Origin: Dysgonamonadaceae bacterium
Lineage (GTDB): Bacteria; Bacteroidota; Bacteroidia; Bacteroidales; Azobacteroidaceae
Direction: 5' to 3'
DNA length: 13,932 bases
NCBI GenBank assembly: GCA_031276105.1
Contig: JAISNS010000047.1
Span: forward strand, 1 to 13,932
Shown here: piece by piece, positions 4,710 to 13,932 of the stretch
Position numbering within the stretch: the stretch's first letter is position 1
Layout: each line of letters opens with the position of its first letter
The notes under the pieces: model-generated
The model's database searches: none
What the model was told of the DNA's origin: nothing
What the model saw: the letters and a program-made list of their open reading frames with translations, nothing else
Program-made: the position numbers and the translations under genes

Positions 4710-7283
<2,574 letters not shown>

Positions 7284-7291
<8 letters not shown>

Positions 7292-8600
7292 ATTTTTTTT
7301 CCAAAGGTCTGTTTATATTAAATTTAATTTTAAAAATCCGTTTTTTATCCATTTCCAATACTTGGAAAGCGTAATTTTCGTATCGAACAATTTCCTTATG
7401 CTCAGGAAAATCCCCTTTGATTTCCAGAACCAGTCCGGCAATGGTATCGACGTCGTCGGTTAGTTTTCCGAACGTTTTCGAATCCAGTCCGGTTGCCCGG
7501 AAAAAGTCTATCAACAATATTTTAGCGTCAAAAATATACGATCCGTCGGCAAGACGGGTGAACTTGGTCTCTTCTTCGTCGTATTCATCATTGATTTCTC
7601 CGACGATTTCTTCCAAAATATCTTCCATAGTAACAATTCCCGATGTTCCGCCAAATTCGTCAACGACTACGGCCATGTGGATTTTGTTGGTACGAAATTC
7701 TTCCAGCAGGTCGTCAATCTTTTTTGTTTCGGGAACAAAAAAAGCCGGTCGAATCAATTTCTGCCAATGGAAACTGTCGGGTTGGTCCAAATAAGGAAGC
7801 AAGTCCTTGATATAAAGGATGCCGCGAATATCGTCCTGATTTCCTGAATAAACGGGAATACGGGAATAGGATACATCAACAATATAGGAAATGACCTTTT
7901 TGAATCCGGTGGTAACATCCAAATCGGCCACGTCCATGCGGGGAGTCATGATTTCGACCACCGTTTTATTATACAGGGAAATGATTCCCTTCAACATGTC
8001 TTTTTCTTCCGGCAATTCGTTGGAAGTCAATTCCAAAGCCTTCGACAATTCATCTACGGAGACGTCGTTGGACTTTTTTTTCATGATTGTCGTAGAAAAA
8101 GAAGATTTCAATAATAAAAAAGAAAAAGGACGGGTAATCTTCTCCATTACATCAAGTAAAGGAGCAATTTTTTTTATGAATTTAAATGCATTGTTTTGCG
8201 CATAGATAGCGGGAATTGTTTCGCCGAAAAGTAAAATTAAAAAAGTCAGGAGGATAATTTCAGCAAAAAACCCGATAAGCCGCGCATTCGAAAAATCAAT
8301 GAATTGATAAAAAGCATAAGTCGTTAAGAGAACAATGCTCACATTGGCAAAATTATTCCATATTCGCAAAGTTGCCAACAAGTTGTCGGAACGATCCGAT
8401 AAGGACGCGATCAAGGATTCGGCGGAAGATTCGTTTTCATCTCTCTCATTTTTATCTATTGATCTCAAGGAAAAAAGAGCGATTTCTGCGGCGGAAATCA
8501 TTGCAGAAACGAGCAGTAATATAAACATACAAGCGAATGCAATAATTGCATTTGCCGAAACCGGATAAAATCGTATGTCTGAAAATAAATCGAAATCCAA
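7284..8600 (-). CDS. gldE: GldE, CBS/CorC-domain membrane protein (gliding-associated)
   Basis: A 438-residue inner-membrane protein if read from TTG 8600. It has a DUF21/CNNM membrane domain (about 15-170, with SAAEIALFSL after the first helix and a FGETIPAIYA motif). A CBS pair follows (about 215-335, with EIMTPR and VVVDEFGGTSGIVTMEDILEEIVGE), then a CorC_HlyC C-terminal domain (about 345-430). The family is linked to cation transport and, for GldE, to GldD function. An ATG at 8678 would add 26 residues (MSCIIAHNLLLKK...), but it lies inside a heptamer repeat. The segment from TTG 8600 reads MDFDLFSDIRFYPVS, like N-termini I recall for Bacteroidales GldE. It overlaps gldD by 8 nt. Confidence 0.9.
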
Positions 8601-8643
8601 AATTGTAAAATATTTATTTATTTTGCATTGCTTAATCACTTTT

Positions 8644-8706
8644 TTGAGTAATAAATTATGAGCTATGATGCAACTCATAACTCATAATTCACAACTCATA
8701 ACTCAT
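8644..8706. repeat. Heptamer repeat element with inverted arms, between ssb and gldE
   Basis: Nine consecutive 7-nt units fill this stretch exactly. The left four (8644-8671) are variants of ATGAGTT. The right five (8672-8706) are AACTCAT, its reverse complement, with one variant unit (AATTCAC). The two arms can fold back on each other in RNA or single-stranded DNA. The last base falls in the ssb stop codon, and the element separates ssb from gldE inside one operon. Its layout matches the unrelated repeat at 13157-13268. Confidence 0.75.
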
Positions 8707-9188
8707 CAAAAGGGTAAATCGTTGCTTTCGGCCGGTAACGAAGATGTTTCTTCCGGCGCCGGCTTTATTTCTACGGCTACTTTTGGAGTGTTTTCGGCCT
8801 GCGCCGGCGTTTGATTCCCTGCCGGAATCGGAGCGCCAGCATTCGGATTTTCCTGTTTAGGCCCCAACATTTCCATCTGATCTCCCCACACTTCCGTAAT
8901 GTAACGCCTTACTCCTTGCGCATCATCGTAATTACGGGTACGCAATTTTCCCTCGATATACAATTTAGCGCCTTTGCGGACATATTTTTCGGCGATTTCC
9001 GCCAAACCTCTCCACAAAACAATGTTATGCCATTCCGTGCGATCGGGGACTTGCGTTCCGTTTGCAGCGGTATAACCTTTTTCCGTTGTCGCTAAGGAAA
9101 AATTAGCAACTGCGCCACCATTGTCGAAATACCTGACTTCAGGGTCTTTACCCACATGCCCAATTAAAATAATTTTGTTTACTGACAT
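8706..9188 (-). CDS. ssb: Single-stranded DNA-binding protein
   Basis: A 160-residue protein that coats single-stranded DNA in replication, repair and recombination, probably as a tetramer. The N-terminal OB fold (about 1-108) begins MSVNKIILIGHVGKDPEVRY and contains the NFSLATTE and TEWHNIVLWRGLAEIAEKYV motifs, KGAKLYIEGKLRTRNYDD and VWGDQMEMLG. The tail (about 109-153) is disordered and rich in Pro, Ala and Glu. It ends in SNDLPF, the conserved acidic tip that recruits partner proteins. It is the first gene of the leftward operon with gldE, gldD and ligA, preceded by a strong consensus promoter. The length is normal for the family. Confidence 0.97.
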   Translation of the reverse strand: MSVNKIILIGHVGKDPEVRYFDNGGAVANFSLATTEKGYTAANGTQVPDRTEWHNIVLWRGLAEIAEKYVRKGAKLYIEGKLRTRNYDDAQGVRRYITEVWGDQMEMLGPKQENPNAGAPIPAGNQTPAQAENTPKVAVEIKPAPEETSSLPAESNDLPF

Positions 9189-9638: not shown

Positions 9639-12302
9639 ATGAACCCCGAAGATTTAGAAGACATCATTGAAGAAGAAAATACAGGCAAAGAACATTCGGA
9701 CTACATCATTCCCGAAACGACCGAAGGCGACAGCCGACACGTCTTGTCGGGCATGTATAAGGATTGGTTCATGGACTATGCCTCATACGTCATCACCGAC
9801 CGGGCTGTTCCCCATATCTCCGACGGACTGAAACCGGTACAGCGCCGCATCCTGCACACAATGAAACGATTGGACGACGGACGCTATAACAAGGTCGCAA
9901 ACATTGTGGGCGATACCATGAAGTTTCACCCGCATGGCGACCAATCAATCGGAGGCGCTCTGGTTCAACTGGGACAGAAAAACCTGCTCATCGACTGTCA
10001 GGGAAACTGGGGAAATATCCTGACCGGCGACGGCGCCGCTGCTCCCCGATACATCGAAGCCCGGCTGTCGAAATTCGCCTTAGACGTGGTCTTTAACCCA
10101 AAAACCACCCAATGGAAACTCTCTTACGACGGACGAAACAAGGAACCGGTTACTCTTCCCGTAAAATTCCCCCTGCTTCTGGCGCAGGGAGGCGAAGGAA
10201 TCGCCGTCGGACTGCAATCGAAAGTCCTTCCACACAATTTCAACGAGTTGATCGACGCAAGCATCGCTTACCTGAACAACGAAACGTTTACTCTCTATCC
10301 CGATTTTCAGACGGGTGGATATATCGACGTTGCCCGTTACAACGACGGCGAACGGGGCGGCTCGATCAAAGTACGGGCTAAAATCAACAAAGTGGACAAT
10401 AAAACGTTGTCGATCACCGAAGTACCTTACGGGAAAACAACCTCTACCCTGACCGAATCCATCCTGAAAGCCAACGAAAGAGGCAAAATAAAAATCCGCA
10501 AAGTGGATGATATGACCGCCAAAAATGCGGAAATCGTCATTCATTTAGCCCCCGGCGTTTCGTCGGACAAAACAATCGACGCCCTTTATGCCTTCACCGA
10601 CTGCGAAATAAGTATTTCGCCCAACTGCTGCATCATCGACGAGAACAACAAGCCGCAATTCATGACCGTTTCGGACGTTTTGAAACACATTACGGACAAT
10701 ACTTTGCGCCTGCTGAAACTCGAACTGGAAATACAAAGGGGTGAAATCTTGGAAAGTCTTCATTTTGCTTCCTTAGAAAAAATCTTTATCGAAGAACGAA
10801 TTTACAAGGACAAGGAATTTGAAAACGCCAAAGATATGGACGTTGCCCTCACGCATATCGACAAGCGTCTGGAGCCGTTCAAGTCACAATTTGTCCGAGA
10901 AGTCAACCGCGACGACCTCCTGCACCTGATGGAAATCAGGATGGGGCGAATCCTGAAATTCAACAAAGATAAGGCCGACGAATTAATCGCTTCCTACAAG
11001 TCGCAGATTGAAACAACCGACCATCATCTGGAACACCTCGTCGAATACGCCATCGACTGGTTTACGCGCTTAAAGGAAAAGTACGGGAAAGATTATCCCC
11101 GCAAAACGGAAATCCGCAGTTTCGATACCATCGAAGCAACCAAAGTCGTGGAAGCCAACGAAAAACTCTACATCAACCGCGAAGAAGGTTTTATCGGTTA
11201 CGGCTTGAAAAAGGATGAATTTGTCTGCAACTGTTCCGACATCGACGACGTCATCATCTTCTTTAAAGACGGGAAATACAAAATCGTGAAAGTCACCGAG
11301 AAAATGTTCGCAGGCAAAAACATCCTCTACCTGAATGTTTTCAAACGCAACGACAATCGTACCATTTACAACGCCGTTTACCGCGACGGAAAAACCGGCG
11401 CCAGTTTCATCAAGCGTTTCTCCGTAACGAGCGTAACCCGCGACAAAGAATACGACCTCACGCAGGGCAAGCCGGGCAGCCGCATCCTCCATTTTTCGGC
11501 AAATCCGAACGGGGAAGCCGAAACCATCCGGATTATCCTCAAACCCAAGCCCAGGCAAAAATTGCTTGTCTTCGACAAAAATTTCAGCGACATCGCCATC
11601 AAAGGACGCGCATCTGTCGGAAACATCCTGACAAAAGCCGATATTCACAAGATCTCGCTGAAATCGAAAGGCGGATCCACGCTGGGCGGCCGTCAGGTCT
11701 GGTTCGACCGCGACGTGCTTCGCCTCAATTACGACGGACGGGGCGATTACCTTGGAGAGTTTTTCTCCGACGATTTGATTCTGGTCGTCCTGACAAACGG
11801 CGATTTTTATACAACCAGTTTCGATTCGGGAAATCATTATCAGGGAGAAATCAAAATCATTGAAAAATTCAATCCCAACAAAGTCTGGTCTGCCGCCCTG
11901 TTCGACGCCGATCAGAAAGGATACCCCTATTTGAAGCGTTTCACGTTCGAATTGAGCAATAAAACGCAAAGCCTGCTGGGCGAAAATCCGGCGTCCCGAC
12001 TAATCCTTCTGTCCGATACCGTCTATCCGCGTCTGGAAGTCCGGTTCGGCGGACACGATTCGTTCCGGGAAGCCTTGCTTATTGATGTAGAGGAATTTAT
12101 TGCCGTCAAAGGGTTCAAAGCGAGGGGCAAACGCATCACGACCTGCGAAGTGGCAACTATCGAGGAAATTGAGCCGACCCGCTTCCCTGAACCGGAGGCG
12201 AGCCATGTGCCACAGCCGGATATAGATATTGAACCGGAAGAAGACGACAAACCAATTACAGAATTAATAGATGAAATCACAGGTCAACAACGGTTATTTT
12301 AA
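9639..12302 (+). CDS. parC: DNA topoisomerase IV subunit A (ParC; GyrA/ParC family)
   Basis: An 887-residue type IIA topoisomerase A subunit that cuts and rejoins DNA, decatenating chromosomes with ParE. The breakage-reunion domain (about 35-480) has GLKPVQRRIL, HPHGD (97-101) and catalytic Tyr138 after Arg137 in AAPRYIEARL. The C-terminal beta-pinwheel (about 540-850) lacks a canonical QRRGGKG GyrA box, which favours ParC over GyrA. An acidic tail ends in TGQQRLF. ATG 9639 is chosen because the candidate promoter lies within the 30 extra codons of the longer frame from 9549, and MNPEDLEDII begins a plausible acidic N-terminus. The two positions matching the E. coli GyrA quinolone sites are Gln102 and Gly106. 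The last 32 nt overlap the next gene. ParE is not in the window. Confidence 0.93.
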   Translation: MNPEDLEDIIEEENTGKEHSDYIIPETTEGDSRHVLSGMYKDWFMDYASYVITDRAVPHISDGLKPVQRRILHTMKRLDDGRYNKVANIVGDTMKFHPHGDQSIGGALVQLGQKNLLIDCQGNWGNILTGDGAAAPRYIEARLSKFALDVVFNPKTTQWKLSYDGRNKEPVTLPVKFPLLLAQGGEGIAVGLQSKVLPHNFNELIDASIAYLNNETFTLYPDFQTGGYIDVARYNDGERGGSIKVRAKINKVDNKTLSITEVPYGKTTSTLTESILKANERGKIKIRKVDDMTAKNAEIVIHLAPGVSSDKTIDALYAFTDCEISISPNCCIIDENNKPQFMTVSDVLKHITDNTLRLLKLELEIQRGEILESLHFASLEKIFIEERIYKDKEFENAKDMDVALTHIDKRLEPFKSQFVREVNRDDLLHLMEIRMGRILKFNKDKADELIASYKSQIETTDHHLEHLVEYAIDWFTRLKEKYGKDYPRKTEIRSFDTIEATKVVEANEKLYINREEGFIGYGLKKDEFVCNCSDIDDVIIFFKDGKYKIVKVTEKMFAGKNILYLNVFKRNDNRTIYNAVYRDGKTGASFIKRFSVTSVTRDKEYDLTQGKPGSRILHFSANPNGEAETIRIILKPKPRQKLLVFDKNFSDIAIKGRASVGNILTKADIHKISLKSKGGSTLGGRQVWFDRDVLRLNYDGRGDYLGEFFSDDLILVVLTNGDFYTTSFDSGNHYQGEIKIIEKFNPNKVWSAALFDADQKGYPYLKRFTFELSNKTQSLLGENPASRLILLSDTVYPRLEVRFGGHDSFREALLIDVEEFIAVKGFKARGKRITTCEVATIEEIEPTRFPEPEASHVPQPDIDIEPEEDDKPITELIDEITGQQRLF

Positions 12303-13143
12303 TGGATTGAGTTGCAAGGCGCACATTCTCCTGCTTCTTTTCTGGGGATATATCGGAGGAGCAGTTGCTCAGCCGTCGCCGGAAATTCCGCTGATTTACG
12401 AATCGGACATGGTCGGCATTGGAAGCGCAAGCGTTTACGATACCTACCTTTCCCCGCTGGAATACAAAGGCGTTAACTTCGGAGCGTTGTATGAACAGAT
12501 GGAAATGACCGGCTGGTTATCCGGTCGGATCGTCGCCCAGCAACTGCTCTTTTTCGAACTCTCCACAACGGAAAACCTTACGGGAACGGCCAGCAATTAC
12601 GCGGGAAATCTGGAATACAGCTACGGACTCTACTACCGTTTCAAGCCGGTACATCGCTTCCGGTTTTTTGCCGGAATGCAGGCCGATGCTCTGCTGGGCT
12701 TCATTTATAATTCCCGCAACGGAAACAATCCGGCTACGGCAAAAGTCAACCTGAACCTCAACCTGTCGGGAATGGCGACTTATCACTTCCGCATCAAACG
12801 GCAACCCGTACAGTTGCGTTACCAACTGAATTTACCGGCAATCGGAAGCCTCTTTTCGCCCCAATTCGGACAATCGTATTACGAAATCGGACTGGGCGAC
12901 GGCCAACCGCTCTTTCATTTGGCTTCCTTCCATAATCAACGGATCATCAATCAGCTCTTTTCGATCGAATTGCCGCTCCATTCCTCCATCCTGCGGCTGG
13001 CTTATGTGAACCGGTTGTACGAAACTCAAATCAACAGCCTTGATACACGAACGGTTTCCCATTCGTTTTACGTCGGGTTTTCCAAGAACTTTTATGTCGT
13101 TAAAGGAAAAGAAAATAAAAAAAACTACCGCTATGTTTTTTAA
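12271..13143 (+). CDS. DUF3316-like outer-membrane protein
   Basis: A 290-residue exported protein. Hydrophobic residues about 18-30 and the AVA site (cleavage after residue 33) form a signal peptide. The mature part is rich in alternating aromatic strands (LEYSYGLYYRFKP, RFRFFAGMQADALLGF, VNLNLNLSGMATYHF, QPVQLRYQLNLP) and ends in a strand, typical of an outer-membrane beta-barrel. From memory it fits DUF3316, often found after parC and before an S41 peptidase in Bacteroidales. ATG 12271 overlaps parC by 32 nt. A TTG at 12307 (residue 13) would give a shorter signal peptide starting just past the parC stop and is an alternative start. Function unknown. Confidence 0.75.
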   Translation: MKSQVNNGYFNGLSCKAHILLLLFWGYIGGAVAQPSPEIPLIYESDMVGIGSASVYDTYLSPLEYKGVNFGALYEQMEMTGWLSGRIVAQQLLFFELSTTENLTGTASNYAGNLEYSYGLYYRFKPVHRFRFFAGMQADALLGFIYNSRNGNNPATAKVNLNLNLSGMATYHFRIKRQPVQLRYQLNLPAIGSLFSPQFGQSYYEIGLGDGQPLFHLASFHNQRIINQLFSIELPLHSSILRLAYVNRLYETQINSLDTRTVSHSFYVGFSKNFYVVKGKENKKNYRYVF

Positions 13144-13932
13144 TAATAAATTATTAAAAAGGGAAAAGGGAAAAGGCGAAAGGCAAAAGACAGATCGGCA
13201 AAGGTTCTTTCGCCCTTCACCTTTCACCTTTCGCCTGTTCTTTCGCCTTTTACCTTTCGCCCTTTGCCCCATCTTTCTTTTCTCCTGCGTTGAAATAGAA
13301 AAATATGCAGACAATCCGCGCGGCAACTTCGAGGCTTTATGGACAATCATGGACGAGCATTACTGCTTTTTTGAATACAAGAAAATTGATTGGGACAACA
13401 TTCACAGCGCTTATTCTCAACGGATAAGCAATGACATGAGTCAGGAATCGCTTTTCATGCTGTTGAACGAAATGCTTCAGGAATTGAAAGACGGCCATGT
13501 CAATCTCACGACACCTTTCGACGTGGGGCGTTACTGGAAATGGTTTGAAGACCATCCCGCCAATTACGACGAAGATTTGATAATCAAGTATTTGGGAACC
13601 GATTATCATATTGCCGGCGGCATCCGTTACAAGATTTTGGACGACAATATTGCTTACCTGCGCTACGCCGACTTTTCGTCGGGCGTCGGCGAAACAAACC
13701 TCGATTACATCATCGAAAAAGCCGGCATCTGTTCCGGAATGATTATCGACGTGCGCAACAACGGCGGCGGCATTCTGAGCTATTCCGACGTCATTACGTC
13801 CCGTTTTGTCAACGAAAAAACCTTGGTCGGGTACATCCAACACAAAACAGGGAAAGGCCACAACGATTTCTCCGAACTTTATCCCAAATACGTCGTCCCT
13901 TCTACGCGCTTGCGGTTTCAAAAACCGGTGGT
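13133..13932 (+). CDS. S41-family (C-terminal processing type) peptidase lipoprotein, 5' part
   Basis: A partial gene open to the window end (266 complete codons). ATG 13133 overlaps the DUF3316-like stop by 11 nt. Residues 1-51 act as a lipoprotein signal with lipobox L-F-S-C, so Cys52 would be acylated. The mature protein begins VEIEKYADNPRGNFEALW, then the DEHYCFFEYKKIDW segment, LKDGHVNL and the S41 core strand IIDVRNNGGG. The catalytic Ser/Lys region lies beyond the window. Such lipoproteins are surface or periplasmic serine proteases of unknown substrate. Most of the signal peptide (residues about 9-46) is encoded by a heptamer repeat (13157-13268), giving a long basic n-region with Arg interrupting the hydrophobic part. 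The mature domain is well supported; the exact start is less certain. Confidence 0.85.
   Translation, partial: MFFNNKLLKREKGKGERQKTDRQRFFRPSPFTFRLFFRLLPFALCPIFLFSCVEIEKYADNPRGNFEALWTIMDEHYCFFEYKKIDWDNIHSAYSQRISNDMSQESLFMLLNEMLQELKDGHVNLTTPFDVGRYWKWFEDHPANYDEDLIIKYLGTDYHIAGGIRYKILDDNIAYLRYADFSSGVGETNLDYIIEKAGICSGMIIDVRNNGGGILSYSDVITSRFVNEKTLVGYIQHKTGKGHNDFSELYPKYVVPSTRLRFQKPV
13157..13268. repeat. Heptamer repeat element with inverted arms, inside the S41 peptidase signal region
   Basis: Sixteen 7-nt units cover this stretch. The left seven (13157-13205) are purine-rich variants of AAAAGGC. The right nine (13206-13268) are pyrimidine-rich variants of CCTTTCG, its complement, with two or three degenerate units in each arm and a change of phase in the right arm after 13240. 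The arms can pair as a long imperfect hairpin. The S41 reading frame runs through the whole element without a stop. The architecture is the same as at 8644-8706 although the unit sequence is unrelated. Confidence 0.75.

Follow-up and report, generated by a model that had tools for sequence, protein, structure and literature searches.

The window analysed here, 13,932 nucleotides of the forward strand from a Dysgonamonadaceae bacterium (GenBank GCA_031276105.1, contig JAISNS010000047.1), is one contig (C156) of a draft genome that totals 2.58 Mb across 370 contigs, and it closes with a gene for an S41 peptidase lipoprotein whose ATG lies inside the 3' end of a DUF3316 gene (Table 1). A sequence-only reading of the window had pointed out this overlap with the preceding stop, as well as the frame that stays open from ATG 13133 to a lipobox Cys (TGC, 13286–13288), and both hold. 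What fills that frame is not the single 112-nt heptamer repeat then described but two opposed heptamer arrays at about 13156–13272, a purine array facing a less regular pyrimidine array, so that the N-terminus runs MFFNNK, then the repeat, then FLFSC. Very probably this is a multi-copy heptamer hairpin tolerated inside the signal-peptide region of the lipoprotein, in a slot that unrelated repeats have taken repeatedly.

Tandem Repeats Finder reports a period of 7 at 13157–13189 and a 33-nt period at 13206–13277. Compared with 60 mononucleotide shuffles, the region between the preceding stop codon and the Cys has a lag-7 score at z = 15.3 and an inverted-repeat (IR) score at z = 9.8, the latter registering the inverted arms of the repeat, a trait that MITEs also have. 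As RNA, 13153–13273 folds at -41.6 kcal/mol (z = -3.5; 1 of 200 dinucleotide shuffles was equally stable), and the fold-back arms may influence translation. Residues 1–38 of the 52-residue leader include 12 Lys/Arg and 3 Asp/Glu, and 14 uncharged residues (LLPFALCPIFLFSC), the Cys included, follow the last Arg. The predicted order of a basic and then a hydrophobic stretch is as the sequence-only reading gave it, but the Arg interruption it stressed is minor. By inspection the hydrophobic core is uninterrupted and the lipobox is LFSC; the S41 protein is likely exported and lipidated at this Cys, and the sequence lends no support to altered export or acylation through the repeat.

Between 13133 and the lipobox Cys the frame contains neither ATG nor GTG nor TTG, CTG at 13235 being the sole candidate codon noted. 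Further in-frame starts lie upstream within the DUF3316 gene (ATG 13094, TTG 13040), and initiation at ATG 13094 would likewise read through the repeat. We favour 13133 because it is common to the relatives: insert-free orthologues start at the same position with MF.NN, as in L060 (MFFNNMTRCLSFIPFFLILLFASC; the best named relative, 78% identical), P0057/L004 (MFSNNKTFLLGIFILLFLLFPAC; a leader of 23 residues) and P0102/L006 (MFLNKYFVFIGLFVWLSVSC). The absence of the insert from these orthologues bears out the comparison that the sequence-only reading had proposed, and for this gene no start downstream of the repeat was found. Since relatives without the repeat keep the MF.NN start, the insert is part of the coding sequence, in frame and stop-free in a conserved gene, and, given the lack of a standard in-frame start before the Cys, a lipoprotein with a standard start must be translated across it. 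In most orthologue loci a long upstream frame also ends at this point, just 5' of the S41 gene; in G004 (L072) it is likewise a DUF3316 gene (Pfam E 2e-26). The named relatives are metagenome-assembled genomes labelled Dysgonamonadaceae, Candidatus Symbiothrix and Candidatus Azobacteroides, which we take to be termite-gut bacteria.

Among 84 loci read as DNA there were 45 distinct orthologues (the motif was absent from L173), and a slot region was counted as carrying an element-like repeat at IR>=12 or lag-7>=13. Eight of the 45 slot regions exceed this threshold, compared with none of 522 stretches of equal length taken from the mature parts, and they hold several repeat families (Table 1); the palindrome of L077 may fall outside the signal peptide because of its position at the start codon. 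The slot element of L002 lies below the threshold (IR 9), yet has 43 matches in its own genome. Slot-element matches within own genomes number 43 in G002, 12 in G022 and 27 in G059; each number includes the element as one match and partly also opposing arms. In 28 of the 45 the Cys lies 43–80 nt past the stop of the preceding frame, and among these L069 (70 nt) is the sole repeat carrier. From protein sequence only, inserts of the AGLTRNP, CEQSEAIHN and HSERSEES types are found at the N-termini of P0011, P0012, P0015 and P0037. In the palindromic families the insert seems to fall mostly in the n-region and the hydrophobic core looks native (P0107, P0011), which is the easier form of tolerance.

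Three protein searches, each limited to the 120 best among more than 7,500 matches, supplied 143 orthologues, of which 141 entered a tree built on the mature parts (P0002, through the motif filter, and P0126 were left out). Insert labels were assigned by hand: 64 without, 38 with and 39 unscored, hence 102 scored. The tree requires at least 22 changes between presence and absence, 26 when families are counted and, if just the heptamer type is considered, 13. Presence of the insert separates the members of clear sister pairs whose starts are alike, P0098/P0086 (83% identical), P0070/P0067 and P0019/P0022 (SH-aLRT 91, 91 and 93). P0135 and P0136 are 95% identical over 343 residues and have leaders of 62 and 21 residues, although P0136 may have a misannotated start. 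As related bacteria have different repeats or none at the slot, repeats seem to have replaced the signal peptide many times. Both P0135 and P0136 also have PPTPSEGGGVAF near the C-terminus; it resembles a reading of the CCCCTGAAGGGG palindrome, and thus repeats may extend C-termini too.

Table 1. Features of the window, repeats in the orthologous slot and related elements at other loci
Feature	Locus	Position	Strand	Remarks
DUF3316 gene (PF11777)	window	12271..13143	+	Pfam E 7e-29; 5' neighbour of S41 gene
Start codon, S41 lipoprotein gene	window	13133..13135	+	overlaps DUF3316 gene end; MF.NN common to insert-free orthologues
Purine-rich heptamer arm (AAAAGGG/AAAAGGC/GAAAGGC)	window	13156..13204	+	codes predicted basic n-region (KREKGKGERQKTDRQR)
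Pyrimidine-rich arm, less regular (CACCTTT/TACCTTT/CGCCTTT)	window	13205..13272	+	codes most of predicted hydrophobic h-region, ending RLLPFALCPI
End of h-region and lipobox FLFSC	window	13274..13288	+	Cys 13286-13288, aligned in 45 orthologue loci
Mature part: Tricorn C1 and beginning of Peptidase S41	window	13289..13932	+	PF14684 E 7e-16; PF03572 E 5.7e-10, S41 domain truncated by window edge
Slot over threshold	window			purine/pyrimidine heptamer arrays
Slot over threshold	L007			CCCCTGAAGGGG palindrome
Slot over threshold	L009			GTTCACC heptamers; single array, no strong inverted repeat (IR 5)
Slot over threshold	L010			GGCACAA hairpin
Slot over threshold	L067			CCCCCTGAAGGGGG plus TTTGCCC heptamers
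Slot over threshold	L068			AAAGACA heptamers
Slot over threshold	L069			GGTGCAC heptamers
Slot over threshold	L077			GACTACGTCG palindrome directly before or at start codon
AAGGTAC heptamer hairpin	L072 (G004)	7034-7143		reads as signal peptide of DUF3316 gene (Pfam)
CAATTCT heptamer array	L229	9724-9772		leader MKHNSQFSILNSQFN of alpha-L-fucosidase
DUF4249 lipoprotein-like reading frame	L200	6022-7044	-	AGLTRNP-type palindrome in signal peptide; IR 32
Heptamer-like array, Prevotella-group S41 gene	L138	~9970-10142		codes hydrophobic core
Heptamer-like array, Prevotella-group S41 gene	L108	~10040-10079		codes hydrophobic core
Heptamer-like array, Prevotella-group S41 gene	L112	~10100-10148		codes hydrophobic core

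The window repeat has 59 BLAST pieces in its own genome (E<=10, itself included), many of them short or fragments of one copy. The sequence-only reading had suggested a mobile or expanding repeat that was tolerated or co-opted; the pieces supply its relatives elsewhere in the genome, and of the two outcomes tolerance fits better than co-option. Heptamer arrays were surveyed in 40 contigs of the window's genome plus the window (276,599 nt; the hit-bearing contigs C10 and C21 stand outside) and in 40 stretches from 18 relatives (781,164 nt), on contigs with an S41 match, a weak one in G006. The surveyed part of the own genome has 27 arrays, 21 intergenic, five N-terminal and one C-terminal; the relatives have 19, 17 intergenic and two N-terminal. 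About 92% of the surveyed bases lie in open reading frames (ORFs), yet no array in either set lies in a gene interior, and 38 of the 46 are intergenic, as is typical of tandem heptamer repeats. Period 7 accounts for 27 arrays in the surveyed own genome, each other period from 4 to 11 for 0–2; in the relatives the counts are 19 for period 7 and up to 11 for period 11. An AACTCAT array of the same repeat class and a different unit type occurs in the window itself, at 8670–8709, between genes 7284–8678 and 8706–9188.

Of the N-terminal arrays in the window's genome, just that of the window is a clear case: in L252 and, with two arms, in L238 the repeat is probably a spacer that precedes the true start codon, and the ORF at L247 is doubtful. 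Both N-terminal arrays in relatives lie in lipoprotein-like leaders, of an S41 orthologue and of the alpha-L-fucosidase in L229. In 22 named contigs there are six intergenic and four N-terminal arrays, the latter comprising the fucosidase, the L068 S41 gene and the two arms of the L072 hairpin. We considered whether signal peptides in general are a hotspot, scanning 81 ORFs of lipoprotein-like character from roughly 1.06 Mb at IR>=11 or lag-7>=15 (the fucosidase of L229 was missed on account of its lipobox), and rejected this, as six of the 81 pass, four clearly (L200, L219, L229 and the window) and two weakly (L203, L205). Three of the four clear cases are S41 genes.

An origin by fold-back copying is not supported for the AAGG hairpins: their two arms resemble each other no more closely than they do arms from other hairpins, the summed match to their own arms being 189.5, compared with a permuted mean of 185.9, and 715 of 2000 permutations score as high. 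In the six hairpins not of the AAGG type, the arm's own partner is the best match in all six. Heptamer hairpins with GC(A)AAGC-like centres occur in L238 (2042–2130), L243 (4162–4275) and L250 (2116–2280); the loop of the last holds a nested second palindrome, which suggests a composite element family.

Why such elements should be found in signal peptides may lie in what they encode. Purine codons specify Lys, Arg, Glu and Gly, and pyrimidine codons Phe, Leu, Ser and Pro. AAGG hairpins from a strict scan have the purine arm first in 11 of 11 rows (nine places; three rows overlap in L175), and array pairs of any unit type do so in seven of eight cases, with one even. An inverted repeat that is purine-first on one strand is purine-first on both, and therefore Lys/Arg codons tend to come before Leu/Phe codons whichever strand is translated. 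For the coding test the window element, missed by the strict scan, was added, and frames were called signal-like if basic and then hydrophobic by a fixed hydropathy and charge rule devised for this analysis and standing in for SignalP. Of 60 frames from ten elements, 31 are stop-free and 24 signal-like; with the arms swapped, 28 of 60 are stop-free and none is signal-like; and 12,000 frames of shuffled controls include 2,263 stop-free and 212 signal-like.

Fifty-two of 54 outgroup loci could be read, and two exceed the threshold, L108 and L138, both from the Prevotella group, with L112 similar by eye; in all three, units resembling TTCACTT or TTTACCT encode the hydrophobic core. The L138 gene is preceded by a long GAAAGGT/GAAAGTT array, and a pyrimidine array facing it codes the h-region. 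In the wider order, 295 genomes were searched, 92 gave a match, and 29 new best-match loci were taken, of which 25 were read.

Based on these observations, the heptamer hairpin between the conserved start and the lipobox would form most of the present signal peptide, with an n-region rich in Lys and Arg read from the purine arm and an h-region rich in Leu, Phe and Pro from the pyrimidine arm, whichever strand is read and in roughly half of the frames, while the native lipobox would supply the site of cleavage and acylation. The hairpin may be tolerated because its arms satisfy the two loose demands of a signal-peptide region, and the slot has been filled many times by unrelated repeats probably because it is the sole unconstrained stretch between two tightly joined genes. 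We infer that the element arrived by insertion rather than growth in place and was nearly neutral. It is possible, though we would put it somewhat below even, that purine-first heptamer hairpins act as portable signal-peptide cassettes, working from both strands and in roughly half of the frames, and repeatedly creating or replacing export signals in S41, DUF3316 and other secreted-protein genes of Bacteroidales.

Several points weigh against the tolerated insertion. The best other genomic copy is just 74% identical over 91 nt, the likeness being mainly that of heptamer units. The close relatives P0002 and P0003 have the same repeat type, judged by peptide, and thus the insertion in the window is not recent. 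The coding test holds two coding copies (the window and L072) and the near duplicates L178/L179; without the window and L072, 20 of 48 frames are signal-like. The tree rests on hand-set labels, 54 of its 138 inner branches are weakly supported, and P0002 lies outside it. Slots of 91–307 nt (L063, L005, L008, L003, L082, L015) fall below the repeat threshold and nine of 52 outgroup leaders, measured from the first ATG, are >=35 residues, so length alone does not indicate a repeat. None of the 25 orthologue loci from the wider order exceeds the threshold; of these loci, L274 and L296 at least come from genomes already used.

The 74% copy leaves room for a serious though less probable alternative to insertion, in which the array grew in place from a short signal-peptide seed by slippage and template switching. 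The other AAGG hairpins of the genome, alike in unit type and only to about 74%, the unequal leaders of P0001, P0002 and P0003, and the predominance of period 7 all agree with growth, which however leaves unexplained the palindromic slot families that match other genome places at >=80% and why two arrays with the same type of unit should face each other as a hairpin. It is improbable that the hairpin is retained for a role as RNA, tuning S41 translation, with incidental coding content: the fold is stable and lies about 25 nt past the start codon, and the S41 and DUF3316 genes overlap, but 64 of the 102 scored orthologues have no insert, L009 has a single array and no strong inverted repeat, and frame and basic-then-hydrophobic order are maintained. 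We consider it equally unlikely that the inserts are adaptive, through selection for long basic signal peptides or for signal-peptide turnover; the many state changes at one slot would suit this, but tolerance predicts the same pattern and insert-free leaders are the commoner among those scored. An artefact (misassembly at the repeat or a true start beyond it) is very improbable, for although the assembly is a draft, some surveyed N-terminal arrays resemble spacers (L238, L252) and the L077 start may sit at the repeat end, most relatives also have the long upstream frame ending just before the gene, the other genomic copies found are too diverged for an exact join, and the frame offers no standard start before the Cys.

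A tolerated hairpin of this kind offers a concrete, testable path from repetitive DNA to a functional protein part, in that purine-first hairpins tend toward signal peptides on both strands. The orthologues form a natural series, one gene with several unrelated inserts and empty sister forms, for gauging the minimal sequence needs of a lipoprotein signal peptide. They also urge caution on gene callers, as starts may be misplaced at such repeat loci.

An Rfam scan of the window at gathering thresholds returned nothing but a tRNA. Cyanobacterial STRR are tandem 7-mers, mostly intergenic, and Rickettsia palindromic elements (RPE) were reportedly described by Ogata et al. 2000. Bacterial heptamer repeats such as TAACTGA, some of them in Bacteroidetes, are tandem 7-mers, mostly intergenic (MacGregor 2015, PMC4679880). 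The arrays described here resemble these and STRR in being mainly intergenic 7-mers, and differ in forming opposed arrays as hairpins, in having several unit types and in being partly coding (PMC4679880).

In the literature search, which covered titles and abstract openings with most subscription journals outside it, repeats recurring in one signal peptide were not found beyond the kind in PMC2759123 and PMC2229807. RPE are multi-copy palindromes of about 100–150 bp, in frame in conserved protein genes and apparently tolerated (PMC2229807). The window repeat is likewise multi-copy, with additional AAGG hairpins from the scan, palindromic, in frame in a conserved gene and apparently tolerated. 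Whereas RPE were reported in 19 reading frames of various proteins (PMC2229807), here one signal-peptide slot takes several unrelated families, and the copies of the heptamer type share no fixed family sequence. In Yersinia, the RU-2/YPAL element of YPO1552 is outlined in the part of the report available as a repeat-derived signal peptide, one hydrophobic element in one gene, with unrelated signal sequences in relatives, as here (Delihas 2007, PMC2759123); replacement has been repeated at one slot in the S41 gene and the signal-like reading is strand-independent, unlike in that account. Protein-coding palindromes are thus a known kind; what is new, as far as this search reached, is that unrelated repeats have filled one slot again and again and that the signal-like coding does not depend on the strand.
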